A DNA stretch of 31,042 nt from a virus, in the IMG/VR virus record IMGVR_UViG_3300009790_002314, positions 1 to 31,042 of that record; one strand, 5' to 3'. Every line of letters begins with the position of its first letter. Position 1 is the stretch's first letter. Under the pieces are notes generated by a model that ran no database searches, was not told the DNA's origin, and was given only the letters and a program-made list of their open reading frames with translations. Position numbers and translations under genes: made by a program. Below, one piece after another: positions 3,723 to 22,754 of the stretch.

Positions 3723-3726
3723 TAAC

Positions 3727-3804: not shown

Positions 3805-4177
3805 TAGAATGATAAAGGTATCCTTCCAGAGAGAAGGTATCCACATGTTCCCTGGAGCAGATACAAATCCAGATTATGCAACAGGTGATTGGAGAGATGT
3901 TAGTTTTTTAGGTTATCCTCATAGACACATCTTCCATTTTTATGTAACACTAGGTGTTTCACATAATGACAGAGACGTGGAGTTTATACAGTTTAAGAGA
4001 GAATTGGAAAGACAGTTTGAACAAGGTGTACTACAACTAGACCACCAATCATGTGAAATGATAGCAGAATCTCTTATAAATTATATAGAGGAACAGTATC
4101 CTAACCGTTCAGTCCGAGTGGAAGTATATGAAGATAATGAAAACGGAGCAATCTTAGAAAATGATTTATTTAATTGA
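3791..4177 (+). CDS. reduced T-fold (QueD-like) protein, function unknown
   Basis: 128 aa, starting at an ATG 10 bases after a GGAG site. It looks like a divergent relative of QueD/6-pyruvoyl-tetrahydropterin synthase. A PHRHIFHFYV segment (H44, H46, H49) sits where QueD has its HGHN zinc motif. VEFIQFKREL resembles the QueD VDFGDLK segment. LDHQSCEMIAE (D84, H85, E89) then looks like the LDH...PTAEN region with the intervening loop deleted. The C-terminus, VRVEVYEDNENGA, resembles the final QueD strand with its conserved Glu. A standard QueD follows at 5254, so this is a second T-fold protein in the same operon. It could be a non-catalytic partner or a separate enzyme on a deazaguanine or pterin. 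The homology is inferred by eye only. Confidence 0.55.
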   Translation: MSVSNRMIKVSFQREGIHMFPGADTNPDYATGDWRDVSFLGYPHRHIFHFYVTLGVSHNDRDVEFIQFKRELERQFEQGVLQLDHQSCEMIAESLINYIEEQYPNRSVRVEVYEDNENGAILENDLFN

Positions 4178-5267
4178 TTTAGAGTATGTAGAAACACGAT
4201 ATACTGCCCAATGGAAATCAGCATTTCCTCAGATGATGGCAAATGCTATAAAAACAGATATAACATCAATTGAAGGTCCAAAAGAAATACCACCTTCTAC
4301 ATCTCCAGGTGCCTTTTTAAACTTTGGTGGTACCAATATTTACAAGTCAGCACAAGTTATAGAAATTGCTAGTAGGTTTACCAATGATGAGATACAAGAT
4401 GGTGACCAATTTGTATTTGCAGATGCTTGGCATACAGGTATCTTACAATTAAAATATATGGCAGAACTTTTACAGAAAGATATAACAATACATGCTTTAT
4501 GGCATGCTGGTAGTTATGATCAACATGATTTTTTAGGTAGACTTATAGGAGATAAACCTTGGGTTAGGCATACAGAAGAAGCTATATTCCATGCAGTAGA
4601 TAAAAATTATTTTGCATCTACATTTCATATGGAACTATTTGCTAATTGTTTTTTCTCAGATCCTGATTGGCAAAAACCTAAAAAGGCAGAATATTTAGCA
4701 AGTAAAATGGTTAGATCAGGTTGGCCTATGGAGTATCTAGAAATGATGATAAACAACGACATTGAAGATGGTTGTAACAACAAAAAAGATAAAATTTTAT
4801 TCCCACATAGAATTGCACCTGAGAAACAAGTAGATATATTTAAAGACTTAGAAAAAGAATTACCTCAATATGAATTTATTGTATGCCAAGAAAAAGAATT
4901 AACAAAACCTGAATATCACAAATTGTTAGGTGAGGCAAAGATGGTATTTAGTGCTAACTTACAAGAAACATTAGGTATATCTTGTTATGAAGCACTATGT
5001 ACAAAAGGAATGCCATTAGTTCCTGAAAGACTAAGTTACAAAGAAATGTATGAAGATAGATTTATGTATCCTTCTAAATGGACACAGAATTGGAAAGAGT
5101 ATCAGGAACATAAAGAAGAATTAAAAGAAAAGATTGTTACTTTGATGGAGAGTTATAATACTAATGAAGTCTTAGCTGACATTGAAACAAATAAAGAAAG
5201 GTTGCAACTACAATATTTTGGAGGTGGCAACTTATACACGGAGATATATAACAATGAACCAACCTGA
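4161..5267 (+). CDS. GT-B fold glycosyltransferase (GT4-like)
   Basis: 368 aa. The C-terminal half is typical of GT-B retaining glycosyltransferases. ILFPHRIAPEKQ, near residue 215, resembles the start of the nucleotide-sugar domain. It is followed by a YHKLLGEAKMVFSAN segment and ETLGISCYEAL with the EX7E pattern (E269 and E277), then a MPLVPERLSY loop. The N-terminal half is less conserved but has a Rossmann-like region with an ALWHAGSYDQHD stretch. T4 phages use unrelated GT-B enzymes to glucosylate hydroxymethylcytosine in their DNA. Here the gene sits between a T-fold protein and QueD in a DpdA block, so a sugar on a deazaguanine base is a reasonable but unproven idea. Overlaps both neighbours, by 17 and 14 bases. 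Confidence 0.7.
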   Translation: MIYLIDLEYVETRYTAQWKSAFPQMMANAIKTDITSIEGPKEIPPSTSPGAFLNFGGTNIYKSAQVIEIASRFTNDEIQDGDQFVFADAWHTGILQLKYMAELLQKDITIHALWHAGSYDQHDFLGRLIGDKPWVRHTEEAIFHAVDKNYFASTFHMELFANCFFSDPDWQKPKKAEYLASKMVRSGWPMEYLEMMINNDIEDGCNNKKDKILFPHRIAPEKQVDIFKDLEKELPQYEFIVCQEKELTKPEYHKLLGEAKMVFSANLQETLGISCYEALCTKGMPLVPERLSYKEMYEDRFMYPSKWTQNWKEYQEHKEELKEKIVTLMESYNTNEVLADIETNKERLQLQYFGGGNLYTEIYNNEPT

Positions 5268-5727
5268 ACCTTATAGAGATTACAAGTACTACTCTACAAA
5301 AACTTATGGACATGAAGAAGGTCTTTCATGTATGTTTAGACAACCTTTGGCAACTCATAGTCATTGTAGTTTACTACATGGTTACGCTTTGTCTTTTAGT
5401 TTTAAATTTGGGTGTGACCATCTCGATGATAAAAATTGGGTGGTAGACTTTGGAGACTTAAAAGATTTAAAAGCATGGTTAAAAGATTCTTTTGATCACA
5501 AGCATGCAGTTTGTAAAGACGATCCTGAACTACAAGAGTTTCTATTAATAGAACAGAAAGGATTGTCAGAAGTAAGAGTTATGAATGGTGTTGGATGTGA
5601 GAAATTTGCAGAACACGCATTCCACTTTGCTAATGATCTAGTTAAAAAGAAAACGAATGGTAGATGTTATGCTGTGTCATGTGAAGTTCGAGAACATGGA
5701 GCTAATAGCGCTATCTACGAGGGCTAA
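5254..5727 (+). CDS. queD: 6-carboxy-5,6,7,8-tetrahydropterin synthase QueD
   Basis: 157 aa from the ATG at 5254, which has GGAG 10 bases upstream; an in-frame extension to 5182 lies wholly inside the glycosyltransferase gene and is rejected. The T-fold motifs are clear: HSHCSLLHGYAL (H35, catalytic-type C38, H42), NWVVDFGDLK at 61-70, and SFDHKHAV with the D/H pair near residues 81-82. An EHGANSAIYE C-terminus completes the pattern. QueD converts dihydroneopterin triphosphate (the FolE product) to 6-carboxy-tetrahydropterin, the QueE substrate. One oddity is that the last zinc His of the usual HGH motif is Tyr (HGY). From memory this substitution occurs in a recognised subgroup of the family, so I do not take it as inactivation. 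Confidence 0.88.
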   Translation: MNQPEPYRDYKYYSTKTYGHEEGLSCMFRQPLATHSHCSLLHGYALSFSFKFGCDHLDDKNWVVDFGDLKDLKAWLKDSFDHKHAVCKDDPELQEFLLIEQKGLSEVRVMNGVGCEKFAEHAFHFANDLVKKKTNGRCYAVSCEVREHGANSAIYEG

Positions 5728-5729: not shown

Positions 5730-6791
5730 ATGAAAGTAGCTCTTGTTACAGACACCCACTTTGGTGCCAGGTCAGATCATTTAGCTTTTGATGCTTACTT
5801 TGAAAAATTTTATACTGATTTTTTCTTTCCTTACTTAGAACAGGAAGGTATTAAAACAATATGTCATTTGGGTGATATATTTGATAGAAGAAAGTATATA
5901 AATTTTAATACATTGAAGTCTTGTAAAAGATACTTCTTTGGTAAAGCAGCAGAACTAGGTATTGAGATACATATGGTACCTGGCAATCATGATACATACT
6001 TTAAAAATACAAATGATGTAAACAGCCCTGACTTATTGTTAGGGGAATATAACAACATAACATTATATCAAGAACCAACAGAAATAATGTTAGACAGAGA
6101 GAAGGTACTTTACCTTCCATGGATATGCGGAGAAAATTATGACAGGACTATGGCCAAGATTTCAGAGACTGATGCAAAAACTTGCTTCGGACATTTCGAA
6201 TTCGCAGGTTACGATCTTCTTCCAGGTATGCCTAATCTCCACGGCATGGACTCTACTATTTTTAGTGATTTTGAGCTTGTGGTTAGTGGCCATTTTCATC
6301 ATAGGCATAGCAGAGGGAATATTACATATATGGGCAACCCTTACGAAATCACTTGGAGTGATTACGAAGATCCCAGAGGATTTGCGGTCTTCGATACAGT
6401 TCAAAGATCATTGGAATACCACAACAACCCTTATAGACTCTTCCATAAAATCTATTATGACGACTCCAATTTTGAAGGTGTTAACAACATCAGTCATTTT
6501 GATTTTGATTCTATTGTTGGTGGTAATGTAAAACTAATTGTAAGTAATAAGACAGACTTTACAAGGTTTGACCACTTTGTAGACAAGTTATATCAATGTA
6601 ACTTAATTGATCTAAAAATTATAGAAGACTTTTCAGAGTTTGAAGATGAAGCATTAGGTGAAGATATAGATTTAGAAGATACAATGACGTTATTAAAAGA
6701 TTATGTTAATTCAGTTGAAACAGATTTAGATAAACAAAGAATTAAAAATCTATTACAGAGTTTATATGTGGAAGCACAAGATATAGGATGA
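5730..6791 (+). CDS. 47: gp47-like recombination endonuclease subunit (Mre11/SbcD nuclease)
   Basis: 353 aa; T4 gp47 is of similar size. It has the calcineurin-like phosphoesterase motifs in order: DTHFGAR near the N-terminus, HLGDIFDRR, PGNHDTY, and a SGHFHHRH motif, which supply the metal-binding Asp, His and Asn residues of Mre11/SbcD nucleases. With gp46 it forms the complex that resects DNA ends for recombination-dependent replication. The stop overlaps the gp46 start as ATGA, as expected for two subunits of one complex. It begins 2 bases after queD, so it may share transcripts with the modification block. The segment 6140-6440 uses more C-ending codons than the rest of the gene. Confidence 0.96.
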   Translation: MKVALVTDTHFGARSDHLAFDAYFEKFYTDFFFPYLEQEGIKTICHLGDIFDRRKYINFNTLKSCKRYFFGKAAELGIEIHMVPGNHDTYFKNTNDVNSPDLLLGEYNNITLYQEPTEIMLDREKVLYLPWICGENYDRTMAKISETDAKTCFGHFEFAGYDLLPGMPNLHGMDSTIFSDFELVVSGHFHHRHSRGNITYMGNPYEITWSDYEDPRGFAVFDTVQRSLEYHNNPYRLFHKIYYDDSNFEGVNNISHFDFDSIVGGNVKLIVSNKTDFTRFDHFVDKLYQCNLIDLKIIEDFSEFEDEALGEDIDLEDTMTLLKDYVNSVETDLDKQRIKNLLQSLYVEAQDIG

Positions 6792-8461
6792 TTAAATTTA
6801 CAAATATTAGATGGAAAAACTTTCTGTCTACAGGCAATGCGTGGACCGAGATTGATTTCCAACATAGTCCCAGCACATTAATTGTAGGAGAGAATGGTAG
6901 TGGTAAATCTACATTGTTAGATGCTTTGACATTTGCATTGTTTAATAAACCATTTAGAAATGTATCTAAACCACAACTAATTAATTCTATTAACAACAAA
7001 CATTGTTTGGTTGAAATTAACTTTAAGATAGGTAGTAAGAATTATCTTATAAGAAGAGGATTACAACCAAGAGTATTTGATATAGAAATTGATGGTGAGT
7101 TATTAGATAAGAATGCTAATATTAGAGACTTCCAAAAGTATTTAGAAGAGAATATTCTTAAACTTAATTACAAATCATTTACACAGATAGTGATGTTAGG
7201 TAGTGCTTCTTTTACTCCTTTTATGCAATTACATTTAGGTGCTAGACGAGAGATAATTGAAGACATATTAGACATTACAATCTTTACTGCCATGAACGGT
7301 GTGTTAAAGACAAAGGTAAATGACTTAGAAAACAAAGTAAGACTTATAACAGGAGAGGTAGATGTAGCAAAGCAGAAAGCAACTCTTCAAGAACAATATA
7401 TAAAGACATTAGAGGACGATAAAACGTCTAAAGTAACCTCATTACAGGAATCAATTAATGAAGCAGAACACGCGATCAAGGTTTATGAAGAAGGTACATC
7501 AACAGCAACAGAGAAGAAGAGTTCTTTGGGCGACGTTACGCAAAAGAAGAGAGAACTCGAGCGATACAGAGACAAATTCACAGGACAAATTAACGACCAC
7601 AGAAAACAAATAGAATTCTTCCATAACAATGAGGAGTGTCCTGTTTGTCAACAAGGTATTGAGCATGATCATAAAGAGATAATGACACAAAGAGACGAAG
7701 AGAAAGTCTCTGAACTGGAAGGTGCTCTAGAAGAACTGAATACGAAGTACGAAGAGGTAGAGAAACTTGTTGAGCAAGTAACTGAATTAGACAAACAGAT
7801 AATGGATTCTAATAATGAAGTTATTACACAACAAAGAATAATACAAAGACTTACATTAGAGATAAGTGAGACTCAAAATAAAGTAGGAGATATAACAACA
7901 GAGAAAGACAAGTTAAAGAGACTTGCCAAAGATGTTATTAAAAAGTCCTCAGAAAAAACAGACTTAAATGAAACAAATCATTATTACGGTCTATGTACTT
8001 CCTTATTAAAAGATTCTGGTATTAAAACTAAGATAATCAGGCAATATGTTCCTATAATAAACAAATTAGTTAATAAATACCTTGCAGCAATGGACTTTTT
8101 TGTTCAGTTTGAAATGGATGAAACATTTAAAGAAACAATTAAGTCTAGGTTTAGAGATAAATTTAGTTATGCTTCTTTCAGTGAAGGAGAAAAACAAAGA
8201 ATTGATTTAGCATTGGTGTTTACTTGGAGAACGATTGCCAAGATGAAGAACAGCGCTAGTACTAATATACTCTTACTAGATGAAGTGTTTGATAGTAGTT
8301 TAGACAATGATGGAACACAATATGTTATGCAACTATTAGACACAATAGGAGAAGATACGAATGTATTCGTAATATCTCACAAGGGTGATCAACTGTTTGA
8401 TAAATTTAGATCAGTTATTAAATTTGAGAAGAGGCAGAATTATTCTGTAATATCAAAGTGA
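6788..8461 (+). CDS. 46: gp46-like recombination endonuclease subunit (Rad50/SbcC ATPase)
   Basis: 557 aa, nearly the same length as T4 gp46. Walker A is GENGSGKST at residues 34-42. A long charged coiled-coil region follows, interrupted by a Rad50-type zinc hook CPVC (C284 and C287). The C-terminal lobe has FSEGEKQRIDLAL (ABC signature) and LLLDEVFDSSLD (Walker B and D-loop) near residues 494-505, then a VISHK switch histidine. The protein is the ATPase and tethering arm of the gp46/47 nuclease. It is translationally coupled to gp47 upstream and to the methyltransferase downstream (GTGA overlap). Codon use in 7430-7780, around the zinc hook, is richer in C and G than in the flanks. Confidence 0.97.
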   Translation: MIKFTNIRWKNFLSTGNAWTEIDFQHSPSTLIVGENGSGKSTLLDALTFALFNKPFRNVSKPQLINSINNKHCLVEINFKIGSKNYLIRRGLQPRVFDIEIDGELLDKNANIRDFQKYLEENILKLNYKSFTQIVMLGSASFTPFMQLHLGARREIIEDILDITIFTAMNGVLKTKVNDLENKVRLITGEVDVAKQKATLQEQYIKTLEDDKTSKVTSLQESINEAEHAIKVYEEGTSTATEKKSSLGDVTQKKRELERYRDKFTGQINDHRKQIEFFHNNEECPVCQQGIEHDHKEIMTQRDEEKVSELEGALEELNTKYEEVEKLVEQVTELDKQIMDSNNEVITQQRIIQRLTLEISETQNKVGDITTEKDKLKRLAKDVIKKSSEKTDLNETNHYYGLCTSLLKDSGIKTKIIRQYVPIINKLVNKYLAAMDFFVQFEMDETFKETIKSRFRDKFSYASFSEGEKQRIDLALVFTWRTIAKMKNSASTNILLLDEVFDSSLDNDGTQYVMQLLDTIGEDTNVFVISHKGDQLFDKFRSVIKFEKRQNYSVISK

Positions 8462-9150: not shown

Positions 9151-9384
9151 ATGAAGGTTACAATATATGGAAAGACACGATGTACATTTTGCACATCAGC
9201 AAAACAACTTTGTGAACAAAAAGGATTAGACTATGAGTACTTGTTACTAGATGCTGATTACAAAGCAGAAGAACTGTTTGAAAAAGTGCCTAATGCAAGA
9301 ACATTTCCACAAATTTTTATTGATGACAACCCTGTTGGTGGGTTTCAAGAGTTCCAACAGGTATTGAACTTAGGAACAAAATGA
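9151..9384 (+). CDS. glutaredoxin
   Basis: 77 aa. It has the dithiol active site CTFC near residues 11-14, a TFPQIFI segment with the cis-proline that binds glutathione, and the GGFQEF motif near the C-terminus. Length and motifs are those of classical glutaredoxins. It is a cytoplasmic thiol reductant; in T4 the analogous protein, NrdC, serves the phage ribonucleotide reductase. No ribonucleotide reductase gene is seen in this window. A GGAAG-type ribosome site lies about 7 bases upstream. The stop overlaps the peptide deformylase start (ATGA). Confidence 0.93.
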   Translation: MKVTIYGKTRCTFCTSAKQLCEQKGLDYEYLLLDADYKAEELFEKVPNARTFPQIFIDDNPVGGFQEFQQVLNLGTK

Positions 9385-9914
9385 GCGATTTAGAATTAAT
9401 ACCTTTTACATCTCCAGCATTAAAAGAAGCTCCACAGCAAGTGGACTTAGAAAAGGAAGATTTAAAAGCACTTAAATTTGAGTTATTACAAGCAATGCAA
9501 AAGTTTGGTGGTGTAGGTTTGTCTGCAAACCAAGTAGGTATAGACAAAGCATTTTTTGTTATTGGAGATGGCAAACCTGAAGGTATGCAAAAAGCATTTT
9601 TCAATCCACTATTAATAGCAGTTAGTGATGAAGAGGAAGTTATGAGAGAAGGTTGTTTATCATTCCCTGGTTTGTGGTTAATGGTAAATAGACCTAAACA
9701 ATGTACTATAATGTATCATACTTCTGAGGGTGAAGAGAAGACTGAAACATATGAAGGGATAGGTGCTAGAGTTATACTACACGAATACGATCATATGGTA
9801 GGCCAAAACTTTACAGGAAGAGTTTCAAAGTTCAAATTAGAGCGTGCTTTCAAAGCTCTAGAAAAGAAAATAAAGAAGTACCAAAGACAATCCAAACACC
9901 TCAAGCAGGCATAA
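9381..9914 (+). CDS. def: peptide deformylase
   Basis: 177 aa. The three deformylase motifs are present: GVGLSANQVG at residues 44-53, EGCLSFPGL at 90-98 with the metal-binding Cys, and HEYDH at 134-138 with the two metal-binding His and the catalytic Glu. Motif 2 has F where plant and many bacterial enzymes have V, and motif 3 has Y where HE[FM]DH is usual. The enzyme removes the formyl group from new proteins. Phage deformylases are known from marine cyanophages, where the proposed role is keeping host or photosystem proteins processed; here the role is inferred only. The C-terminus is a basic tail rich in Lys and Gln. Coupled to glutaredoxin by ATGA. Confidence 0.95.
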   Translation: MSDLELIPFTSPALKEAPQQVDLEKEDLKALKFELLQAMQKFGGVGLSANQVGIDKAFFVIGDGKPEGMQKAFFNPLLIAVSDEEEVMREGCLSFPGLWLMVNRPKQCTIMYHTSEGEEKTETYEGIGARVILHEYDHMVGQNFTGRVSKFKLERAFKALEKKIKKYQRQSKHLKQA

Positions 9915-9917
9915 ATA
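9910..9917 (+). promoter_or_regulatory. T4-late-like promoter box upstream of the 116-aa gene
   Basis: CATAAATA overlaps the deformylase stop codon and lies 20 bases before the ATG at 9937. With initiation about 6 bases past the box, the transcript would start right at the strong AGGAGG ribosome site (9923-9928). It could open a late transcript through the 116-aa gene, ClpP, the exported protein and the TonB-dependent receptor. The consensus is short; position and the adjacent ribosome site are the support. Confidence 0.45.
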
Positions 9918-9936
9918 GTAGTAGGAGGAAAATAAT

Positions 9937-10287
9937 ATGGCAGAAGAATTTGATTTTGGTTTTACGGCAGTTGATGAACCGGACCAACCGGCAACTCAAC
10001 AAGTAGCTCCGTCCGTTGATGAAGATAAGATAATGGATAAATTACAGCAGCTAGAAGCCAAGATACTGACAGCTGATAACTCCGGAATGATTAATGAGCA
10101 TAGAGCTCTAATTGAATCTGATGTGGCAACTAAACTTCGTGATGTAGAAGATCTCATACTACCTTTACTGTTTAACTTGCAGAAAAATCCTGAGAAGGAA
10201 TATATACATTGGCCCAATAGAACGGCAATAATTGATAAACAAGTTGAAAAAATAAAGGCGGTAACGAGATATTATGAGCGAATCTAG
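9937..10287 (+). CDS. conserved-looking phage protein of unknown function, 116 aa
   Basis: I do not recognise a family. The protein is acidic at the N-terminus (EEFDFGF, then a Pro/Gln-rich linker). Residues 28-85 look helical and probably coiled-coil, with DKLQQLEAKIL and a KLRDVEDLILPLL stretch. The C-terminus is more basic, with a Trp-Pro-Asn segment and a final KAVTRYYERI. It starts after an excellent AGGAGG site and overlaps the ClpP-like gene by 14 bases, so the two are probably co-translated. A late-type box in front suggests expression with virion genes. It could be an adaptor or scaffold for the protease, but that is only a guess from position. Confidence 0.8.
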   Translation: MAEEFDFGFTAVDEPDQPATQQVAPSVDEDKIMDKLQQLEAKILTADNSGMINEHRALIESDVATKLRDVEDLILPLLFNLQKNPEKEYIHWPNRTAIIDKQVEKIKAVTRYYERI

Positions 10288-10882
10288 TCCAACAAAACCA
10301 ATAAACATACAACCCACGGGCAACGCTTACGAAAGACCTGTTGCCCGTGTTTTTGATTTATATCTAACAGGTATCATAGGGGAGGCAAAAGAGTATCAAG
10401 ACTGGAATCAGATACTACGAATGTCTAGTGAACATGATGCTGTTATAATCCATATTAATTCTAGTGGCGGAGATATGTTCTCGGCAATACAATTAATGAA
10501 AGCAATCTCAGAAAGTCCTGCAACAGTAATTGCCTCGGTAGAAGGTATGTGTATGTCAGCAGCAACTCTAATATTTTTAAGCGCAGAAGTATGTGAAATA
10601 TCTGAACATAGTCATTTTATGTTCCATACATACAGCTCAGGTAATTGGGGTAAAGGTAACGAACAATTAGCAGGCGTACAAGCAGATGATAAGTGGGCTA
10701 GGAATTTATTCCAGTCCGTATATAGAGACTTCTTAACTACACAAGAGATGAAACAAATGATTGATGGCAAAGACTTTTGGATGTCTCCTAAAGAAGTAAC
10801 TGATAGATTAGAAAAACGAAACAAAAAAATTAAAAGAAGTAGAGGACCAAAAACACAACAAAAGCCTTTACAAAAGGTATAA
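10274..10882 (+). CDS. ClpP-like serine protease
   Basis: 202 aa. It has the ClpP fold signature: AVIIHINSSGGDMFSAIQL near residues 56-74, GMCMSAATLI with the nucleophilic Ser at position 95, and HSHFMFHTYSSG with the catalytic His at 118. DGKDFWMSPKEVTD follows, with an Asp near 167 as the third member. Phage ClpP-like proteins act either as prohead maturation proteases or alter host proteolysis. The usual T4 prohead protease gp21 is unrelated, and no capsid genes are in this window, so a host-directed role is at least as likely. The C-terminal 25 residues are a Lys/Arg-rich tail not expected in housekeeping ClpP. No ClpX or ClpA partner is encoded here. Confidence 0.9.
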   Translation: MSESSPTKPINIQPTGNAYERPVARVFDLYLTGIIGEAKEYQDWNQILRMSSEHDAVIIHINSSGGDMFSAIQLMKAISESPATVIASVEGMCMSAATLIFLSAEVCEISEHSHFMFHTYSSGNWGKGNEQLAGVQADDKWARNLFQSVYRDFLTTQEMKQMIDGKDFWMSPKEVTDRLEKRNKKIKRSRGPKTQQKPLQKV

Positions 10883-11525: not shown

Positions 11526-13070
11526 ATGAAAAATTTGGTAGTATTAGTCGTGGCCTTATTGGCCACGTCTGTCTATGCGCAACAAAGCGATGTAGAAGAA
11601 CTTATAGTAGTTGGATCAACTATCTCAAACGGGTTTTCAGATCCTGAAACAGATAACCTGGCAATAGAAGCAATAGAACCCATTAAAGTATATGCACCTG
11701 GAGGCAGGGGTGGTTTTATTGGAGCAACATTAAAAGGAACTGACGTAAAGAATACAGCAGTTTTTAGAAATGGAATTCCTGTAAACGATCCTGGCTCTGG
11801 TTGGTATGACTTTGGTGTTGACATTCCAGCATATCAATCTTACAAAGTAATATCAGGACCTAACTCTGTATTATTTGGAAGTTCAAGTATGGCAGGAACA
11901 GTATTGATAGAAGATGAATATTGGCAAGACGTATTATATAGTAAAGGTGGTGAAGACCAAAGCTATGTGATGTTTGGTAATAAGCATTTACTTGTATCAA
12001 GATACCATGGTACTAGCGGCTCTGTAATGACAGACAATAGTGAAGACGATTGGTTTAAAAATACAACATTAAAATCTAATATGGAGTGGCAAGGATTTAA
12101 ATTTGTTTCTACAGTTACAGATTATGAATATGATTATGATAATTGTTATGCAGTTGACTGGAGTAATACAGATGACTGTAAACAAAATGGCACAAAGTTA
12201 ACAACATCAATAAGAAACGATTGGTTAACAATAGGTGCCACTAGAAATGATACTGAACATCTTAGTGCAGGAGATAAAACTTGGCAATCAGATAATAATA
12301 GATATTATATTGATGTTAAGGAAAGTGTTGGTGACTTTTTATTAGGTGCAACATATCAAAAAGAAGAGTACAATGATCTAGAAGAAGATAGACCAGCAGT
12401 ATATGTTAATTGGGAAAATAAACATTTTGGAGTTGGTTATCGTCGTGAAGACTCAACAAACATATTTAAATTTGGATTAGACTTAAAAGGTGTTAAGTTT
12501 TCTTTAGGTAACAGTTTTAGATCTCCTAATTTATATGAACGATTTGGAGATGATTGGGTTGGTGCAAACCCTAACCTAAAACCTGAGGAAGGTAAAGGTG
12601 CTGAAATAAGTTATGCTAAGTTTACTGCATGGAGATATGAATTTGATGAAGGTATTGATTTTAACTTTATGCAATATAGATATGTAAACTCTGGAGAGTA
12701 CACATCTACAGGTATTAAGTATGCTAATCATATCATAACTGAGAACGGAAGTTGGTATGTGTTGGCACAATACACAGACACTGATAAGATTAGAGTACCT
12801 AAATATCAAACAAAGATATCCTACTACAATGGTTGGAATGACTTTGATTACCTGATTGAATATGTAGGTGCTTACGATAAAGGATTAGAGTTTGATGGTA
12901 GACCTATAGACGACATGTCAACATTTAACCTTAATGTAGGTTATTATTTCGATAGAAAATATCGTTTAGGTTTCCAGATCAAAGATGTTATGAACAGACA
13001 CTTTGAAATTTTACCAGGGTATAGTGCAGGTGGTAGAGAGTTAACAATTAGTCTCGACGTCAGTATATAA
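11526..13070 (+). CDS. TonB-dependent outer-membrane receptor (BtuB-like plug and barrel)
   Basis: 514 aa; most cellular relatives are 600-800 aa, so the barrel has short loops. Residues 1-19 form a signal peptide ending VYA. EELIVVGS just after it resembles a TonB box. The plug domain is recognisable: NTAVFRNGIPVND, then GPNSVLFGSSSMAGTVLI at 111-128, the conserved plug end. The barrel is made of alternating strands and contains SFRSPNLYERFG and NPNLKPEEG, highly typical of TonB-dependent receptors. The last residues, ELTISLDVSI, fit a final strand but lack the usual terminal Phe. Such receptors import vitamin B12, siderophores or sugars. In a phage it could replace a host receptor, feed the cell, or block superinfection. 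No clear ribosome site precedes the ATG. Confidence 0.9.
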   Translation: MKNLVVLVVALLATSVYAQQSDVEELIVVGSTISNGFSDPETDNLAIEAIEPIKVYAPGGRGGFIGATLKGTDVKNTAVFRNGIPVNDPGSGWYDFGVDIPAYQSYKVISGPNSVLFGSSSMAGTVLIEDEYWQDVLYSKGGEDQSYVMFGNKHLLVSRYHGTSGSVMTDNSEDDWFKNTTLKSNMEWQGFKFVSTVTDYEYDYDNCYAVDWSNTDDCKQNGTKLTTSIRNDWLTIGATRNDTEHLSAGDKTWQSDNNRYYIDVKESVGDFLLGATYQKEEYNDLEEDRPAVYVNWENKHFGVGYRREDSTNIFKFGLDLKGVKFSLGNSFRSPNLYERFGDDWVGANPNLKPEEGKGAEISYAKFTAWRYEFDEGIDFNFMQYRYVNSGEYTSTGIKYANHIITENGSWYVLAQYTDTDKIRVPKYQTKISYYNGWNDFDYLIEYVGAYDKGLEFDGRPIDDMSTFNLNVGYYFDRKYRLGFQIKDVMNRHFEILPGYSAGGRELTISLDVSI

Positions 13071-13081: not shown

Positions 13082-14530
13082 ATGCCTGATATAATACTAT
13101 TCACAGATATATGTAGTCCCGGTTTTGGAAGATATGCCGGGACATATCGTATAGCATCTGAGCTCAGAGCTAATGGATACAAAGTACAGGTTATAGAATA
13201 CTTTACTAAGTGGTCAACAGAAGAACTTATAAGCATAATTAAAAAATTTGTTGGTAAAGATACCTTATGGGTTGGCCTTAGTACTACATTTTTAGAGTAT
13301 GAACGCATGCTCCAAACAGGTAAAAACAGAACGAATGTTTTTACTGCACAAATGACTGTTACAGGAAGAGATGATTGGGAAGAATTAGTAGATGAAATAA
13401 GATCTATTAATCCTGATTGTAAAATTGTAGCAGGCGGACACAAAGCAAACCATATAAGACCTGATGATAAAACATTTGATATTATTATACATGGGCAAGG
13501 TGAGGAAAGTGTTCTACAAATCACAAAAGAAATAGAAGAGAAAAGACCATCTAAAAGAACATTAAGTTTAGGGTTTGAAAGATTTTCAACCTGTTCTATA
13601 TTATGGGACGAAGATGATTTAATATTTCCTAACGAACACTTACCAATAGAAATTGCTAGGGGTTGCATATTTAAATGTAGCTATTGTAGTTATGATCTTA
13701 ATGGTAAAAAGATATGGGAGTTCAATAGAGTTCCTGAATTAGTTAGAAAAGAAATAGAAGATGCCAATAATAGATTTGGCAGTACAGGGTTTATGTTTTG
13801 TGATGATACTTATAATGATAGTCCAGAGAAAGTAGAAAGGTTCCATGAGGAATTTATGAAAATGGATTTCAATATTGAGTTCAGTAGTTTTGCTAGATTA
13901 GATCTGATAGTATCACATTGGGAGACAGCAAAACAATTATATGAGAGTGGTCTTAGAAGTGTATTTTTTGGAGTTGAATCCTTTAATACAGCATCAGGTA
14001 AAGCAATAGGTAAGGGTATGCCAGGTGAGAAACTTAAAGAAGGACTTATGAGATTACGAGAGGAATGTCCTGAGATGATTATACTTACAGGTTTAATTGT
14101 TGGATTGCCACACGATACACCTGATACATTACGAGCCAATAACGAGTGGTTAATGCAGCCAGACTGCCCCGTAGACGTAGTTTCATATCATCCACTATAC
14201 ATACACCCACATGATGGCAGTCTAATGTCTAAGAATCCAGGACATTATGGATATGAATTAGATGGACAGGGTGGCTGGACACGAGATGACGGCATAACAA
14301 GACAAGATTGTGTAGGGTTGGCACAAGAGTTACAACTAGATTTTGCTAAAGGAGAACCCTTAAAACGCGGTGCTTGGACCTTCTTTAATAGGTTCCAGAA
14401 CTTAGGGTTTAGTGCAGAACAATTCAAGAAAACCTCACTAGGGTATCCAAATGACGTTTTGGACTCAGAAATAGTGCGTAGAGAGCAAGAAAAATTCGAC
14501 TTTTATAAGTCTAGACTCCTAAGTCTTTGA
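13082..14530 (+). CDS. radical SAM protein with B12-binding-like N-terminal domain
   Basis: 482 aa. Residues 1-150 resemble the cobalamin-binding-like Rossmann domain of B12-type radical SAM proteins: a first strand with PGFGRYAGTYRIASEL, WVGLSTTF, CKIVAGGHKAN and DIIIHGQGEESV in the expected order. The 4Fe-4S motif CxxxCxxC is at C195, C199 and C202 (ARGCIFKCSYCSYD). SAM-binding features follow: GFMFCDDTYN, SSFARLDLI, FFGVESFN and TGLIVGLPHDT. Substrates of this large class include methylations at unreactive carbons and ring rearrangements, so no reaction can be assigned. The DxHxxG cobalamin-ligand motif is absent, as is usual for this class. It is the first ATG after the receptor gene. I see no ribosome site, which fits a nearly leaderless transcript. 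Confidence 0.88.
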   Translation: MPDIILFTDICSPGFGRYAGTYRIASELRANGYKVQVIEYFTKWSTEELISIIKKFVGKDTLWVGLSTTFLEYERMLQTGKNRTNVFTAQMTVTGRDDWEELVDEIRSINPDCKIVAGGHKANHIRPDDKTFDIIIHGQGEESVLQITKEIEEKRPSKRTLSLGFERFSTCSILWDEDDLIFPNEHLPIEIARGCIFKCSYCSYDLNGKKIWEFNRVPELVRKEIEDANNRFGSTGFMFCDDTYNDSPEKVERFHEEFMKMDFNIEFSSFARLDLIVSHWETAKQLYESGLRSVFFGVESFNTASGKAIGKGMPGEKLKEGLMRLREECPEMIILTGLIVGLPHDTPDTLRANNEWLMQPDCPVDVVSYHPLYIHPHDGSLMSKNPGHYGYELDGQGGWTRDDGITRQDCVGLAQELQLDFAKGEPLKRGAWTFFNRFQNLGFSAEQFKKTSLGYPNDVLDSEIVRREQEKFDFYKSRLLSL

Positions 14531-14629: not shown

Positions 14630-17050
14630 ATGAACCAGATAGAAACCAAATCAATATTAGCAAAATGTTTAGCAACCGAGAACATTGAAATAGTTCACGA
14701 CAAAGATATGCCTACAGCGGCATTTGATGTTAAGAACAGAGTTTTAATGCTTCCAGTATGGAAGGAAATGTCTACAGATTTATATGATCTGTTTATTGGA
14801 CATGAAGTAGGACACGCACATGAAACTCCTGAAGAAGGATGGCATGATTTCGTAGTTGACGACATGAACAAAAAAGCATTCCTTAATGTTGTTGAAGATG
14901 TTCGTATTGAAAAGAAAATTAAAGCAAGGTATCCTGGTTTAGTTAAGTCCTTCCACAAAGGTTACAAAGAACTATTTGAAAAAGACTTCTTTGGTCTTGG
15001 TAATTTAGATGTTGACCAACTACCACTTATTGATAGAGTGAACTTACATTATAAAGTAGGCAATCTACTTGGTGTTACTTTTGCAGACCACGAAAAAGAT
15101 TTAGTAGAAAGAATTGGTAAAGTCAAAACTTTCGAACAGGTTATGAAACTTGCTGAAGAACTTTATGGTAACCACAAACAGGAACAACAGGAAAGACAAG
15201 AAGACCTTTCACAATTTATTGAAAAAAACATGCCTCATCCTTTTACAGAAGAAGGACAAGAGGAAATGACACAAAGGTCAGAAGCTAGGGAAGAAGCTAG
15301 GGAAGAAATAGAAGAACAAAAATCCAAATCATTGGAAGAGTACGAAGAAGAATCCCAGCGTAGAAAAGAAATTATAGATGATGCCTACGATAACGGTAAA
15401 GAACATCCAGACTTTTCTGATGAAGAAGGCAACGACGAACATACTACTAGATCATACTATGACGGTATGACTTATGATGAAAGAAGAGCATTGGAAGAAA
15501 AACTAGAAGAGCTTGATGCAGAAGAAGTAGCAGACAAAAAAGCTATTGAAGAAGCACAGAAAGAAAAAGATCTTCTAGATGAAATTAGTGAGTACCTAGA
15601 AAATGATGGACACTCAATTACAGATTCACAGTTTAGAAAAAATGAGAAAGGTTTAGTTGATGAAGAATCAAAAGAACTTATTCATGTTAAACCATTCAAC
15701 GGTGAAGTAGCTGACTTTGTTATTCCAATGGAAGAAGTATATGATTGGACCAACGATAATTGTGCTAGAGTAAGTGAATATAAGCGTGAAGATTCATGGT
15801 CAGAAATTGAGATAGAAGATATCAAAGGGTATGGTCAAAAACTTTGGAAAGAGTTTGAACCAAAACAAAGATCTATAATCAACTCAATGGCTCAACAGTT
15901 TGAACTTAGAAAAGCAGCTACTTCATTTAAGAAATCTAAAATTTCTAAAACAGGTAAGTTGAATGAGGACAAACTTTGGGCTTACAAAATTACTGAAGAT
16001 CTTTTCCACCAAACTCAAATTGTACCACAAGGTAAGAATCATGGTATCCTAATGTTCGTAGACATGTCAGGTAGCATGCACAGACAAATGAAGGGTACAT
16101 TAGAACAAATGGAAACGATGGCAATGTTCTGCAGAAGGGTTAACATTCCTTTTGATGTTTATGGATTTAGCGACAATGGTCCTTCAGGTGAGAGGGACAT
16201 TACTGCTAAACAATTACAAGGTGAACTTACAGCAGAGGGTGGTAGAAGAGACTTTTGTTTTGCACACCTACTTAGCTCTAAGGTTAACAATGTTCAATGG
16301 AACGACACAATGGCATACCTACAGTTAATGAAGAAAGGTTATGAAAGACATAGATACTACAATGATTTAGCTGATGGCAGATCTGTACAGATTTACAACA
16401 GGTATTTTAGACTTGGTGGTACTCCATTAATGTCAGCATTGACATTGGCTCCTAAGTTAGCACAAAGGTTCCAAAAGAATTACAATGTAGAAAAATTGAC
16501 TACAATCGTTTTAACAGACGGTGATCCAACTGATGACATGACATTCGTTACTGAAGAAGGTCAAAAACAGTATTACAGAGGCGAACAGAAGTTCGTATTA
16601 AAAGATGGAGCAGCTAGTTTTTCAATCCCAAGCGATAACGATGGCTGGTACAGAAGTAACAGACAAGAAAATGTGCTTTTACTTTTAGAGTATTATAAGA
16701 AAGTTACAGGGTCTACTCTAATCAACTTCCACTTACTAGATGACAACTCTAGGAGAGGCTTTGAATCAGAGTATGCTAGGAACAATTCTTTTAACAAGAA
16801 ATCTAGAGGTTACATTGAAGAGGATACTTGGAAAGAAACATTGGCTAAGAAGTTCATGAGAGTTGAAGACGACTTTGGATACAGTGCTAGGTTCCTTATT
16901 AAAGGTAAGGGAGAACTAGAGATAAAAGACGAAGAATTAGAGGTAAAATCCAACAAAAAAGGAGATTTACTTCGAGGATTTAGGAAATTTCAGAAGGGTA
17001 AAACAACCCAAAGAGTTTTCCTTAATCAAATCATAGAGTTAGTAGCGTAA
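14630..17050 (+). CDS. large protein with HEXXH motif and VWA domain (CobT-like)
   Basis: 806 aa. The N-terminus has a zinc-metallopeptidase-type motif, GHEVGHAHE (H58, E59, H62), followed by a NVVEDVRIEKK segment. This pattern is seen in bacterial and phage proteins that combine a metallopeptidase-like region with a VWA domain. Residues 180-330 are a long, highly charged Glu/Lys/Gln-rich stretch, probably coiled-coil. The C-terminal half contains a VWA domain with the MIDAS motif DMSGS at D478 and further metal-site residues in the GGTPLMSAL and VLTDGDPTDD segments. It resembles CobT, but cobaltochelatase activity is doubtful. VWA proteins often work with MoxR/CobS-type AAA+ ATPases, and one follows at 17145 under a copy of the same promoter. 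A 12-base tandem duplication lies in the charged region. Confidence 0.85.
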   Translation: MNQIETKSILAKCLATENIEIVHDKDMPTAAFDVKNRVLMLPVWKEMSTDLYDLFIGHEVGHAHETPEEGWHDFVVDDMNKKAFLNVVEDVRIEKKIKARYPGLVKSFHKGYKELFEKDFFGLGNLDVDQLPLIDRVNLHYKVGNLLGVTFADHEKDLVERIGKVKTFEQVMKLAEELYGNHKQEQQERQEDLSQFIEKNMPHPFTEEGQEEMTQRSEAREEAREEIEEQKSKSLEEYEEESQRRKEIIDDAYDNGKEHPDFSDEEGNDEHTTRSYYDGMTYDERRALEEKLEELDAEEVADKKAIEEAQKEKDLLDEISEYLENDGHSITDSQFRKNEKGLVDEESKELIHVKPFNGEVADFVIPMEEVYDWTNDNCARVSEYKREDSWSEIEIEDIKGYGQKLWKEFEPKQRSIINSMAQQFELRKAATSFKKSKISKTGKLNEDKLWAYKITEDLFHQTQIVPQGKNHGILMFVDMSGSMHRQMKGTLEQMETMAMFCRRVNIPFDVYGFSDNGPSGERDITAKQLQGELTAEGGRRDFCFAHLLSSKVNNVQWNDTMAYLQLMKKGYERHRYYNDLADGRSVQIYNRYFRLGGTPLMSALTLAPKLAQRFQKNYNVEKLTTIVLTDGDPTDDMTFVTEEGQKQYYRGEQKFVLKDGAASFSIPSDNDGWYRSNRQENVLLLLEYYKKVTGSTLINFHLLDDNSRRGFESEYARNNSFNKKSRGYIEEDTWKETLAKKFMRVEDDFGYSARFLIKGKGELEIKDEELEVKSNKKGDLLRGFRKFQKGKTTQRVFLNQIIELVA
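15281..15304 (+). repeat. tandem 12-bp duplication within the VWA gene
   Basis: GAAGCTAGGGAA occurs twice head to tail, giving a repeated Glu-Ala-Arg-Glu unit in the charged coiled-coil region. The frame is kept. It looks like a recent slippage event in a tolerant linker. Confidence 0.85.
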
Positions 17051-17068
17051 AAATGTGCAAATCTTTTG

Positions 17069-17123
17069 AAAAAATGCTTGACTCTTGGTTCATCAGAGTG
17101 CATAATAACGGTATATTAAATAA
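17069..17123 (+). promoter_or_regulatory. sigma70-like promoter with internal inverted repeat, copy 2 of the 55-bp repeat
   Basis: Core: TTGACT at 17078-17083, 17-base spacer, CATAAT at 17101-17106. It is 54/55 identical to 14552-14606, including the stretch after the -10 box. It lies between the VWA stop and the AAA+ gene, so the two genes have separate but matched promoters. The spacer inverted repeat here reads CTCTTGGTTCATCAGAG. Confidence 0.8.
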
Positions 17124-17144
17124 TTAAATGTGAGGACATTAAAT

Positions 17145-18335
17145 ATGAAAGCAATAGATAGAGAAAACTTAATTAGTAACCTGGAGTCCAAAGACAATGG
17201 CACAGGTGTTTTTACAAGAAAGCAGATTATAGAGGCTGCTACTGAAATAGGACTTGGTTTCCCAGCTTGGTTGGTAAACAAACCAGACTATAAAGTAGAC
17301 AGAGGCATCTACAATCTTACAACCATGTTCAGTGGACAGACAGTAGCAAAACCAGCAGCTCCAGTAGCAGCTCAAGAAGCTAGGGTTCCACTTGCAGTGG
17401 TTGAAACTCAACCAGTAGAGGTTGTTCAAGCCAAATTAAGAGTTGAAGTTCAAGACTTGATCCCAAGTAAGGACGATACTTTTGTTCCATTTGGTTTCTA
17501 CAAAGACTTGAAATCCGTATTACAAGGTAATATGTTTTACCCAATCTTTATTAGTGGCTTATCAGGTAATGGTAAGACTACAATGGTTGAACAAGTATGT
17601 GCTAATCTTAAAAGAGAGGCAATAAGAGTGAATATTAGTATTGAAACCGACGAGGATGATTTGATCGGTGGCAATACTCTAGTTGACGGTAACGTCGTTT
17701 ATAGGGAAGGCCCAGTCCTCACCGCGATGAAACGCGGGGCAGTCCTAGTTCTTGATGAGATAGATAGAGGCTCAAACAAGCTGATGTGCTTACAAGCAAT
17801 ATTAGAAGGCAAGCCCTACTTTAACAAGAAAACAGGCGAAACCGTAACTCCTGCTCCCGGCTTTAACATTGTTGCAACAGCCAACACTAAAGGCCGAGGT
17901 TCAGATGATGGCAAATTTATTTCTGCCAACATACTAGACGAGGCATTCCTAGAAAGGTTTGCTATAACCGTGGAGCAGGAGTACCCTACAATGGCTACCG
18001 AGAAAAAGATCGTTATCAATAAAATGGCTAAGGCTAATATTGAAGACGATGAGTTTGCAACTCACTTGGTAACTTGGAGTGATGTAATAAGAAGAACTTA
18101 TTACGATGGAGCAATTGACGAGTTGATTTCAACTAGAAGGTTGGAACATATTGTTAATGCGTTTGCAGTATTTGGTGATAAGCAGAAGGCTGTTCAACTT
18201 TGTGTTAACAGGTTTGATGATGACACCAAACAGGCTTTTATAGATCTGTACACTAAGGTAGATCCTACAGTAGAACTTGCAGCAGATTTTGAAAGCCAAA
18301 CAGAACAGGAGATACATGAAGATGCCGAAGAATAA
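17145..18335 (+). CDS. cobS: CobS/MoxR-like AAA+ ATPase
   Basis: 396 aa from the ATG at 17145, which follows a GTGAGG ribosome site; the GTG at 17130 is part of that leader. Walker A is GLSGNGKT at residues 138-145 and Walker B VLVLDE at 200-205. EFATHLVTW and the STRRLEH motif, with sensor-type Arg, lie further on. Residues 1-62 form a separate small domain (FTRKQIIEAA and a GFPAWLV segment) like those in phage CobS proteins, followed by an Ala/Pro/Val-rich linker. The name CobS comes from the cobalt chelatase subunit, and it is a common annotation in T4-like cyanophages. The sequence supports a MoxR-type ATPase that remodels a VWA partner, here very likely the protein at 14630. 17690-17960 has a higher GC content than its flanks. 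Confidence 0.9.
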   Translation: MKAIDRENLISNLESKDNGTGVFTRKQIIEAATEIGLGFPAWLVNKPDYKVDRGIYNLTTMFSGQTVAKPAAPVAAQEARVPLAVVETQPVEVVQAKLRVEVQDLIPSKDDTFVPFGFYKDLKSVLQGNMFYPIFISGLSGNGKTTMVEQVCANLKREAIRVNISIETDEDDLIGGNTLVDGNVVYREGPVLTAMKRGAVLVLDEIDRGSNKLMCLQAILEGKPYFNKKTGETVTPAPGFNIVATANTKGRGSDDGKFISANILDEAFLERFAITVEQEYPTMATEKKIVINKMAKANIEDDEFATHLVTWSDVIRRTYYDGAIDELISTRRLEHIVNAFAVFGDKQKAVQLCVNRFDDDTKQAFIDLYTKVDPTVELAADFESQTEQEIHEDAEE

Positions 18336-18652: not shown

Positions 18653-19717
18653 ATGAAAATCACTCAAATAACTACTCCTGATAGCTTTCAGGAGTTTCCA
18701 TCTCAGAATGATTCAGACTTAGCAGAGTCTTTTTCTACACCTTTGGACTCTTATTATAATTGGGATTATAAAAATGAGGACACTCGTATTAGAAAAATAT
18801 ATGAGTTGGGTAAAGAGAGAGCCTGGAATCCTACTAAGGATATTGAATGGGATTTAGAACACCCAGGAGATATTAAAGTATTAGGACAATGGCCTGAGGG
18901 AGACGATCCTTTTTGGTTTAATTATAGGCCATATAGAGAGCTTTCTGATGATGATAAGAGAGAATTTCAGAAGCATAAAAACCTGTGGCAATTATCATCT
19001 ATCTTACATGGAGAACAAATGGGAGCTATATGTTGTGGCCAACTTGTTTCATGTGCACCAACATACCAAGCAAAATTATTTGCAGCACAACAGGCTGCTG
19101 ATGAAGCGAGGCATGCAGAAACTATGAGTAGGTATATTGCAGAAAGATATGGTTGTGTCTACCCTATCCAAGAGGGTGTAAAAAATATATTTGATATAGC
19201 ACTAGCTTCTAAGGAGTGGGATTTAAAATTTATTATTGTACAGATAGTAGTGGAAGGATTAGCAGTAAGTACATTCCAAATATGTAGACAAAATACCAAT
19301 GACCCTTTACTAAGACAAATAATGGATTTAATACTACAAGACGAAGCAAGGCATATTACATTTGGTATTAATTATTTAGGTGATTATCTAAAGACGTTAT
19401 CCCAAGATGAGATAGAATATAGAGCAGGGTATGCTTTAGAATGTTGCACTACATTACTCAATAGAGTTGGTTTTGCACCAGGGTTTTATAAACAATTTGG
19501 ATTTGATCCTGTAGGAGCACACAATTTTGCATGTGAATTTGAAACAACTGAACTAGGTAGAAACTTTAGGCTCACGAGAAAACATCTCTTAAGAAGAGTA
19601 ATTCCTAATCTTAAACGAATAGGATTGTTAACCGATAAAGTTAGACCTGGGTATGAAGGATTAGGATTATTAGAGTTTGAAGACTTACCAGATGATATGG
19701 AAGCCTACCTTTTTTAA
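18653..19717 (+). CDS. ferritin-like diiron oxygenase or oxidase
   Basis: 354 aa. A four-helix diiron carboxylate site is visible: E121 in LHGEQMGA, E151/H154 in DEARHAE, E201 in VVEGLAV, and E231/H234 in QDEARH. This E, ExxH, E, ExxH order is that of the ferritin-like oxygenase superfamily. The spacing (30, 50 and 30 residues) differs from class I ribonucleotide reductase R2, and no conserved tyrosyl-radical context is visible, so NrdB is not favoured. AurF-like N-oxygenases, fatty-acid or ligand oxidases and tRNA hydroxylases share the site; the substrate is unknown. The N-terminal 100 residues contain the conserved-looking YELGKERAWNPTKDIEWD. It is the first gene after a late box and has no ribosome site. 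Confidence 0.82.
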   Translation: MKITQITTPDSFQEFPSQNDSDLAESFSTPLDSYYNWDYKNEDTRIRKIYELGKERAWNPTKDIEWDLEHPGDIKVLGQWPEGDDPFWFNYRPYRELSDDDKREFQKHKNLWQLSSILHGEQMGAICCGQLVSCAPTYQAKLFAAQQAADEARHAETMSRYIAERYGCVYPIQEGVKNIFDIALASKEWDLKFIIVQIVVEGLAVSTFQICRQNTNDPLLRQIMDLILQDEARHITFGINYLGDYLKTLSQDEIEYRAGYALECCTTLLNRVGFAPGFYKQFGFDPVGAHNFACEFETTELGRNFRLTRKHLLRRVIPNLKRIGLLTDKVRPGYEGLGLLEFEDLPDDMEAYLF

Positions 19718-20196: not shown

Positions 20197-20226
20197 ACAC
20201 TTATAGATTTAAATTTGGAGTATATT

Positions 20227-20883
20227 ATGAAAATTAGTAAACAAACTCTTGAAGTCCTCAAGAACTTTGCTACAATCAACACAAACATTCTGGTTCGAGA
20301 AGGCAACAAGCTTTCAACTATCAGTACAGGTAAAAACATATTTGCCAGAACTGAGGTTACAGAATCCTTCCCTAAAGAATTCGCAATCTATGATCTAAAT
20401 AGTTTGCTTTCATTACTTACATTAATGGAAGACACAGACGTTGAGTTTGGAGACGAGTCTCTTATTGTTACAAAAGGCAATTCTAGATTTGAATATTTCT
20501 ATGCAGATCCTAATATTATTGTTAGTGCACCTGACAAGAGTATTGATGTAGACAACTTCTTTCAGTTTGATTTAACAAAAGAAGATGTAGACATGATACT
20601 TAAGGCTGCTGCTATTACAGCAGGACCTATGTTAAGTGTCGTAGGCGATAATGGAGAGGTTGTAGTTAGTGTTGGTGACCCTAGTACACCTAAGTCTAAT
20701 AGTTTTAGACAAGTAATAGGAACAACAGACAAAACCTTTGATGCTAAACTAGCAATGGAAAACTTTAAGGTTATCCCTGGTAGTTATAGTGTAACTCTTT
20801 CTCAGAAGAAATTTATGTTCTTAGAGAGTAGTAAGGGTGAATTAAAATACTGGTTGGCGCTTGAGCGTTCATCAGATATATAA
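20227..20883 (+). CDS. 45: gp45-like sliding clamp
   Basis: 218 aa, close to the length of T4 gp45. The start is the ATG at 20227 with a TTGGAG ribosome site; the TTG at 20215 is part of that site. The sequence begins MKISKQTLEVLKNFATINTN, then shows DLNSLLSLLTLM and FQFDLTKEDVDMIL, patterns of the clamp's repeated domains, and ends in LKYWLALERSSDI. The trimeric ring tethers the DNA polymerase to DNA and in T4 also activates late transcription from TATAAATA promoters, which fits the late boxes seen in this window. The genes that follow encode the clamp loader, as in T4. Two non-T4 genes, a 60-aa protein and a peroxiredoxin, are inserted between clamp and loader. Confidence 0.93.
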   Translation: MKISKQTLEVLKNFATINTNILVREGNKLSTISTGKNIFARTEVTESFPKEFAIYDLNSLLSLLTLMEDTDVEFGDESLIVTKGNSRFEYFYADPNIIVSAPDKSIDVDNFFQFDLTKEDVDMILKAAAITAGPMLSVVGDNGEVVVSVGDPSTPKSNSFRQVIGTTDKTFDAKLAMENFKVIPGSYSVTLSQKKFMFLESSKGELKYWLALERSSDI

Positions 20884-21815: not shown

Positions 21816-22754
21816 ATGGAACCAGGACAATTTTTATGGGTCGAGAAATATAGACCCTCACGCATAGAGGACTGTATTATACCTGATGAGGTAAAAGAAC
21901 AGTTCACACAATTTATAGCAAAGGGAGAGGTTCCTAATCTATTATTAAGTGGTAGTGCCGGAACAGGCAAAACAACTATTGCACGCGCATTATGTAATGA
22001 GTTGGGTTGTGATTATATTATAATTAATGGTAGTGATGAAGGTAGGCAAATAGATACCCTCAGAACTAAGATACGAAACTTTGCTAGTGCTGTTTCATTT
22101 GAGGGTAAGACTAAGGTTGTTATCCTAGATGAGGCAGACTACATGAATAGGGATAGTGTACAACCAGCACTCAGAGGGTTCATAGAGACGTTCTCTGAGA
22201 ACTGTAGATTTATATTTACATGTAACTATGCCAATAGACTTATAGACCCTCTACATAGCAGGACTACTGTTATAGACTTTAAATTAGCACCCTCAGATAA
22301 GCCTGTATTAGCCTCTAAGTTCCTAAAAAGGATGGAGTACATACTAGATACCGAGGGTGTAGAGTACAATCAGAGGGTACTAGCGGAGCTCTTAAACAAG
22401 TATTTTCCCGATTATAGAAGGGTTATAAATGAACTGCAGCGTTACAGCGCAGGGAATAAAGTTGATGAGGGTATATTAAGTAACTTCCAGGAAATCAATG
22501 CTAAGGCCCTTATAGAGAGTCTAAGGGAAAAGGATTGGAAGAAGATGAGACAATGGGTAGTAAATAGTGTAGATACAGACCCTCAGGGTATATTTAGACA
22601 GATATACGATACTCTACTTCCTGAGATTAAGAGCATTCCTCAATTAGTCTTGTTAATTGCTGATTATCAGTATAAAGCAGCATTTGTTGCAGATCAGGAG
22701 ATTAACTTGACAGCTTGTTTGACAGAAATTATGGCGAATGTGGAATTCAAGTAA
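21816..22754 (+). CDS. 44: gp44-like clamp loader ATPase (large subunit)
   Basis: 312 aa, close to T4 gp44. The N-terminus WVEKYRPSRIEDCI is the RFC-type box II. Walker A is GSAGTGKT at residues 46-53 and Walker B VVILDEAD at 101-108. The following FTCNYANRLIDPLHSRT carries sensor 1 and the SRC-type motif, here SRT (148-150), whose Arg finger is retained. Four gp44 and one gp62 form the loader that opens the gp45 ring. In T4, genes 44, 62 and regA are adjacent; here the order is kept but an RHH gene and four tiny membrane genes lie between 44 and 62. It ends immediately at the ATG of the RHH gene. Confidence 0.96.
   Translation: MEPGQFLWVEKYRPSRIEDCIIPDEVKEQFTQFIAKGEVPNLLLSGSAGTGKTTIARALCNELGCDYIIINGSDEGRQIDTLRTKIRNFASAVSFEGKTKVVILDEADYMNRDSVQPALRGFIETFSENCRFIFTCNYANRLIDPLHSRTTVIDFKLAPSDKPVLASKFLKRMEYILDTEGVEYNQRVLAELLNKYFPDYRRVINELQRYSAGNKVDEGILSNFQEINAKALIESLREKDWKKMRQWVVNSVDTDPQGIFRQIYDTLLPEIKSIPQLVLLIADYQYKAAFVADQEINLTACLTEIMANVEFK

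Follow-up and report, generated by a model that had tools for sequence, protein, structure and literature searches.

The viral record IMGVR_UViG_3300009790_002314 of IMG/VR was analysed over positions 1 to 31,042 (the window; 31,042 bases, 35% G+C), which is a fragment of a Kyanoviridae-type, T4-like phage and holds homologues of gp47, gp46, the sliding clamp, the clamp loader, RegA, Hsp20, DNA polymerase and UvsX. Between gp46 and the clamp lie two intact open reading frames on the same strand, separated by a gap of 79 bases, and it is this pair of genes that concerns us here. The first (14630..17050, plus strand, as are all features of the pair given below) encodes an 806-residue protein with a predicted N-terminal zincin metallopeptidase domain, a charged linker and a VWA domain with a MIDAS motif, and it matches PHROG 459, labelled 'peptidase', over residues 1-806 (E 6.7e-168). 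The second (17130..18335, GTG start) encodes a MoxR/CobS-like AAA+ ATPase of 401 residues, which is recognized by Pfam AAA_5 and matches PHROG 249 (E 4.1e-112) over its full length, a family labelled 'porphyrin biosynthesis'. Given the full-length matches and the co-occurrence of the two proteins, the genes can be assigned to the PHROG 459 and PHROG 249 pair.

The initial annotation of this DNA described a metallopeptidase-like HEVGH site in the larger protein, and the residues are indeed there: HEVGH occupies residues 58-62 (14801..14815), with H58, E59 and H62, the predicted zinc ligands and catalytic glutamate, invariant among homologues. Downstream, the segment N-V-V-E-D-V-R-I-E (residues 86-94; 14885..14911) is likewise conserved and contains E89, the predicted third zinc ligand in a gluzincin pattern. 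Across 89 aligned T4-like homologues the invariant residues include H58, E59, H62, N86, E89, D90 and R92, together with D478, S480 and S482 of the VWA domain; taken together, the residues of the zinc site and the MIDAS vary little or not at all in this set. Because that set was gathered partly with the HEXXH pattern, a second set was collected via the ATPase alone, and in this set HEXXH and the downstream N-x-x-E-D-x-x-I-E/D are present in all 43 of 43 full-length upstream partners; conservation of this extent rules out a chance HEXXH. When the divergent Trichlorobacter (24% identical) and Desulfuromonadaceae homologues are added, the N-terminal residues left invariant are H58, E59, H62, T66, N86, E89, D90, R92 and G103, which match the expectation for a gluzincin active site. 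Over phages, plasmids and one chromosomal island, HEXXH is present in 49 of 50 family members, the exception being Stenotrophomonas phage ANB28 (L250, 4774-6759), in which the position reads REVST. This loss of the zinc site parallels that of cellular CobT, and ANB28 is the sole mobile-element member examined that displays it.

The domain bearing these residues (residues 1-205; 14630..15244) was modelled by itself with a predicted local distance difference test (pLDDT) score of 94.3, and the AlphaFold2 model of the full-length protein has a mean of 79.5. Searches with the domain alone gave no Pfam match and no Foldseek match below E 0.001. In a second structural alignment its leading matches are selecase/jannalysin, an M48-like peptidase, BlaR1, ArdC, IrrE/PprI, Wss1 and aminopeptidases, and while the scores are modest (Z up to 7.3), the uniformity of the zinc-metallopeptidase matches and the agreement of the motif support a zincin fold for the modelled domain. 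The HEXXH helix, the downstream glutamate helix and the predicted fold are together those of a gluzincin.

The long coiled-coil region that had been proposed for this protein is better described as a charged helical linker (residues about 206-348; 15245..15673), which is poorly conserved, with almost no conserved columns in the alignment and acidic low-complexity sequence in its place in relatives; helices are modelled in this region at residues 168-200, 207-252 and 282-324. The VWA domain spans residues about 470-806 (16037..17047) and is interrupted by an insertion at about 515-595. It carries the MIDAS motif D478-x-S480-x-S482 (16061..16075) where the initial annotation had placed it, and T598 (16421-16423) and D630 (16517-16519) complete the motif. 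Its best structural matches are the NorD VWA and midasin MIDAS domains (Z 14.5), with generic VWA domains at about 11.8; as modelled, then, the domain most resembles its counterparts in NorD and midasin, which are known AAA+ partners.

In the ATPase, the Walker A motif GLSGNGKT (17556..17579) is invariant in the alignment; the Walker B residues are D209-E210 (17754-17759), and R276 (17955-17957) is a putative arginine finger. These elements, together with a VWA domain having a DxSxS-T-D MIDAS, are those of a MoxR AAA+/VWA system, and sequence matches in the PDB are to midasin, CobS, NorQ and CbbQ, the best being the midasin AAA+ domains (E 4e-41). An unrooted tree places the T4-like ATPases in a clade of their own (support 100/98), outside a group that joins cellular CobS with cobavirus-type phages (98/97). 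The placements of the VibMJW and HCTV-16 ATPases were set aside as long branches meeting, and the Staphylococcus and Listeria 'cobS' genes were rejected as functional guides, since their ATPases form a group apart on long branches and the adjacent proteins inspected lack HEXXH and MIDAS.

That the 806-residue protein is paired with this ATPase, and that many T4-like marine phages retain both genes, had been suggested from the window alone, and both statements hold. The genes are adjacent and co-occur in relatives, and records in the phage collection are identical in number for the two proteins (Synechococcus 365, Cyanophage 61, Prochlorococcus 24). On viral contigs the ATPase gene follows the VWA gene nearly always where room exists, and at the sole T4-like locus with room and no such neighbour the ATPase is encoded elsewhere on the same contig. 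Contigs chosen via the ATPase, mostly since no partner had been seen nearby, have the partner in 9 of 16 cases, and the viral ones of at least 100 kb have both genes in 5 of 6, even where these are not adjacent. With equal record counts and both genes on nearly all such large contigs, the separate distribution that would have argued against a joint function was not seen. One T4-like homologue (L191) lies on a 188-kb contig assigned to Nonlabens xiamenensis 1Q3, a Flavobacteria genome, and is probably that of a co-sequenced or carried phage.

In the window, the recombination endonuclease subunits gp47/SbcD-like (5730-6791) and gp46/SbcC-like (6788-8461) are encoded upstream, and the gp45 sliding clamp (20215-20883) and gp44 clamp loader (21816-22754) downstream, all on the plus strand. 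Of 37 loci with 5 kb of room on T4-like contigs, 30 have gp46 or gp47 upstream, and 56 of 74 have gp45 or gp44 downstream. The Trichlorobacter homologue, used as a query, returned 2,131 plasmid records. The IncC and IncA plasmids and two further ones of MOBH type share a gene order in which recT or bet precedes exo and these are followed by DUF3150 and VWA; MoxR lies in the same block, and ssb does so in three of these four. Other plasmids and the Trichlorobacter island have toprim, primase, ribonucleotide reductase (RNR), PD-(D/E)XK nuclease or RadC genes as neighbours; in phage-plasmids and their relatives the next large gene beside the pair encodes DNA polymerase III alpha, and in Zobellviridae a primase and a DNA polymerase lie beside it. 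The positional base rate, that is, the portion of a genome within 6 kb of such genes, is about 9% for the IncC plasmid IP40a and 35% for HTVC008M. With so high a base rate the T4-like neighbourhood is weak by itself, and the argument is carried by recurrence across types of element. On plasmids the gene for the DUF3150 protein is constantly found either between those for MoxR and VWA or next to them (e.g. IncC IP40a, L213 1783-9776); a study of SXT recombination (PMC2786100) covers the roles of bet and exo and gives nothing on the neighbouring ATPase and VWA genes.

The domains, the invariant active-site and MIDAS residues, the strict pairing and the gene neighbourhood were computed directly, and the hexamer, docking, catalysis, substrate and DNA-related role set out below are what we infer from them. 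It is likely that the pair belongs to the class of ATP-driven protein-remodelling machines and has an active peptidase. In NorQ-NorD (PMC9976466, PMC13036017), the VWA partner binds to the hexamer and places a finger in its pore; the target is held at an acidic residue by the MIDAS, and a linker is twisted as ATP is hydrolysed. On the NorQ-NorD and midasin model, it is reasonable to postulate that the CobS-like protein would form a hexameric MoxR-type AAA+ ring, that the VWA domain of the partner would dock upon it and hold a substrate protein by an acidic residue through the MIDAS metal, and that the ATP cycle of the ring would pull or twist that substrate. The N-terminal zinc metallopeptidase, joined via the long linker, might then cut the substrate or a bound partner. 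Where this occurs is a more tentative matter; DNA recombination and recombination-linked replication are our preferred site, and the machine may act at DNA ends or forks, for example by removing or restarting proteins. The complete explanation, a remodelling protease working in recombination-linked replication, we hold with a probability of roughly 0.4.

Several considerations weigh against it. The neighbourhood evidence is indirect, with a high base rate in T4-like genomes. The contexts of CRP-810 and HCTV-16 are not clearly replicative, and the plasmid blocks may be one inherited module, such that the lineages are not fully independent. Last, in the clade of the window the pair is adjoined by a BtuB-like receptor gene and a radical SAM gene of B12-binding type. 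A bolder form of the proposal, which we regard as a long shot, is that one ATP-powered protease is common to conjugative plasmids and the T4-like phages of the sea, where it would strip off or cut proteins bound at DNA ends or forks in the course of recombination-linked replication. It would then be a prokaryotic functional counterpart of Wss1/Spartan acting with Cdc48, and cellular CobT would be a derived member of the family with the protease site lost.

Among other explanations, metallocofactor insertion is a serious rival, given how frequently genes for iron enzymes and ribonucleotide reductases are neighbours of the pair, although we consider it unlikely on balance. Here the pair would open non-haem iron enzymes of phage or host (class Ia RNR, 2-oxoglutarate (2OG)-Fe(II) oxygenases, diiron oxygenases) for metal loading. 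The closest mechanistic model, NorQD, inserts iron into nitric oxide reductase (PMC13036017, PMC9976466); on plasmids, genes for RNR or for its maintenance (yfaE) are near the pair; HTVC008M has a class Ia RNR and several 2OG-Fe(II) oxygenases; and in the window an AurF-like diiron oxygenase gene (18653-19717), found elsewhere only in the close relative L002, lies just 3' of the ATPase gene. However, NorD is not known to have a peptidase site, which leaves the invariant HEXXH unexplained, and no one metalloenzyme accompanies the pair everywhere. Replication proteins rather than structural ones surround the pair in HTVC008M and in pelagiphage and cyanophage relatives, and the same pair with the same active site is found on conjugative plasmids, which have no virions; this makes virion assembly unlikely as a common function. 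In that proposal, published for group 2.2 jumbo phages (PMC7824862) on the analogy of a MoxR-VWA pair from an archaeal virus, these proteins would be a chaperone-protease for head or tail maturation. Staphylococcus phage fRuSau02 has a distantly related AAA+ protein which its annotation places in virions, though no VWA partner was seen beside it. We judge virion assembly improbable for the pair at hand. Doubtful too, and somewhat more so, is a protease that would unfold and cut a host defence or regulatory protein in the course of anti-defence or host takeover. The zincin fold does also resemble ArdC of plasmid R388 and IrrE/PprI, and the pair occurs broadly on mobile elements, yet by its record counts, and for cobS as a cyanophage core gene (PMC3037559), it belongs to the core of a whole phage family and is not patchy. 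Membership of a defence system was dropped from consideration, and the 'conflict system' role that had been suggested for the pair finds no support, as the PADLOC defence models gave no match for the 806-residue protein and only weak, generic AAA matches for the ATPase.

Another published proposal for the phage genes is that they are CobST, which would stand in for the CobS and CobT of the host, hijack its CobN and in this way boost cobalamin synthesis (PMC8651126). Common ancestry is supported by sequence comparison: plasmid, phage-plasmid and Trichlorobacter homologues exceed the cut-off of Pfam CobT (PF06213), and CobS is among the PDB matches of the ATPase. The window protein has no PF06213 match, however, and scores 14.1 bits against Pfam CobT_C (PF11775; cut-off 21), while the ATPase scores 74.9 bits against the TIGR01650 CobS equivalog (cut-off 558.55). 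HEXXH is absent from all 31 of 31 cellular CobT proteins in genomes of the order Rhodobacterales and retained by the phage family, and direct membership of CobT is ruled out by the sub-cut-off scores, the presence of HEXXH and the separate ATPase clade, which lies outside that of cellular CobS. Given the HEXXH kept in the family and lacking in cellular CobT, together with the zincin model, 'peptidase' is a better label than 'CobT', and, the tree being unrooted, true CobT is most simply seen as a relative from which the zinc site has been lost. CobN was found in the same element in 0 of 14 viral records, host CobN being outside this search, and the class Ia RNR of HTVC008M needs no B12. The same pair also occurs on plasmids in E. 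coli, a host which is not known to have the aerobic CobN pathway. All told, we think it very improbable that the pair acts as CobST, and a B12 role is possible in particular lineages.

The neighbours of the pair in the window's own clade bear on the last point. Window positions 11526-13070 encode a TonB-dependent receptor of 514 residues with a signal peptide, a TonB-box-like DVEE..VVG and a plug domain above the Pfam cut-off, and among named families it comes nearest to BtuB, the vitamin B12 receptor. Such a BtuB-like receptor stands just upstream of the VWA gene, or of a radical SAM gene preceding it, in contigs L003, L015, L016, L018 and L098, with a fragment in L017. Among 50,697 phage records no relatives of it were found apart from two bacterial contigs, and it seems unusual for a phage to encode such an outer-membrane receptor. 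Beside the receptor, a radical SAM protein (13082-14530) scores weakly for a B12-binding domain (25.3 bits, cut-off 32.1); related radical SAM genes follow the ATPase in L098, L095 and L147. These neighbours keep a B12 link alive for the lineage of the window, at low probability. Farther upstream of the pair, a peptide deformylase and a ClpP-like protease (9381-10882) occupy an interval in which homologues are also found in several relatives, and window positions 1-5727 hold QueE-, FolE- and QueD-like genes, a phosphoribosyl transferase and the unknown PHROG 10773, which suggests 7-deazaguanine DNA modification.

The distinction between these explanations is of some consequence, as the ATPase gene of the cyanophage core is routinely listed among the auxiliary metabolic genes for vitamin B12. 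Should the pair be a remodelling protease of replication and recombination, the ecological reading in terms of B12 would be wrong for a very abundant group of viruses, and the phage pair would be united with the block of IncC, IncA and other MOBH plasmids, the two having seemingly been described separately. The plasmid version is open to testing in laboratory E. coli; for the phage pair, no functional test was found in the published literature that we located.

The machine had been presented as undescribed, which it is not, for two published descriptions exist. In group 2.2 jumbo phages, Iyer et al. 2021 (PMC7824862) reported a MoxR-vWA pair that includes a metallopeptidase at the N terminus. 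The architecture of a MoxR gene adjoining a VWA protein fused to an N-terminal metallopeptidase is shared by the window pair, as judged on the published description; the proposal of virion assembly there differs from the marine T4-like replication block and plasmid relatives seen here. Liu et al. 2021 (PMC8651126) named the cyanophage and haloviral pair CobST and considered cobT 'mistakenly annotated as a peptidase', cyanophage annotations labelling the two genes 'peptidase' and 'cobS'. These are the same genes as the window pair, in which the zinc site lost by cellular CobT is intact. On plasmids, the MoxR and VWA block of pCAR1 (ORF100-103) was reported as conserved in R478, Rts1, SXT and R391 (PMC2642839), and this block, like that of the IncC/IncA and other MOBH plasmids, shares the HEXXH-linker-VWA protein and the MoxR ATPase and differs in the DUF3150 gene, none of which is annotated beside the phage pairs examined. 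The window pair thus belongs to an already known family, to which this work adds the zinc-site survey, the affinity of the VWA domain and the plasmid and recombination context.

NorQ-NorD of Paracoccus denitrificans (PMC9976466, PMC13036017) has, as does the window pair, a MoxR ring and a VWA/MIDAS partner, but its target is nitric oxide reductase and no HEXXH peptidase domain is known for NorD. Midasin/Rea1, whose AAA+ domains are the best sequence match of the ATPase and whose MIDAS domain ties as the best structural match, is in contrast a single giant eukaryotic protein of six AAA domains that lacks a peptidase and functions in ribosome assembly. Wss1 and IrrE/PprI, zincins in DNA metabolism, and ArdC of R388 share the fold of the N-terminal domain at Z 4.5-6.0, a weak, fold-level likeness, and have neither a VWA domain nor a dedicated MoxR partner.

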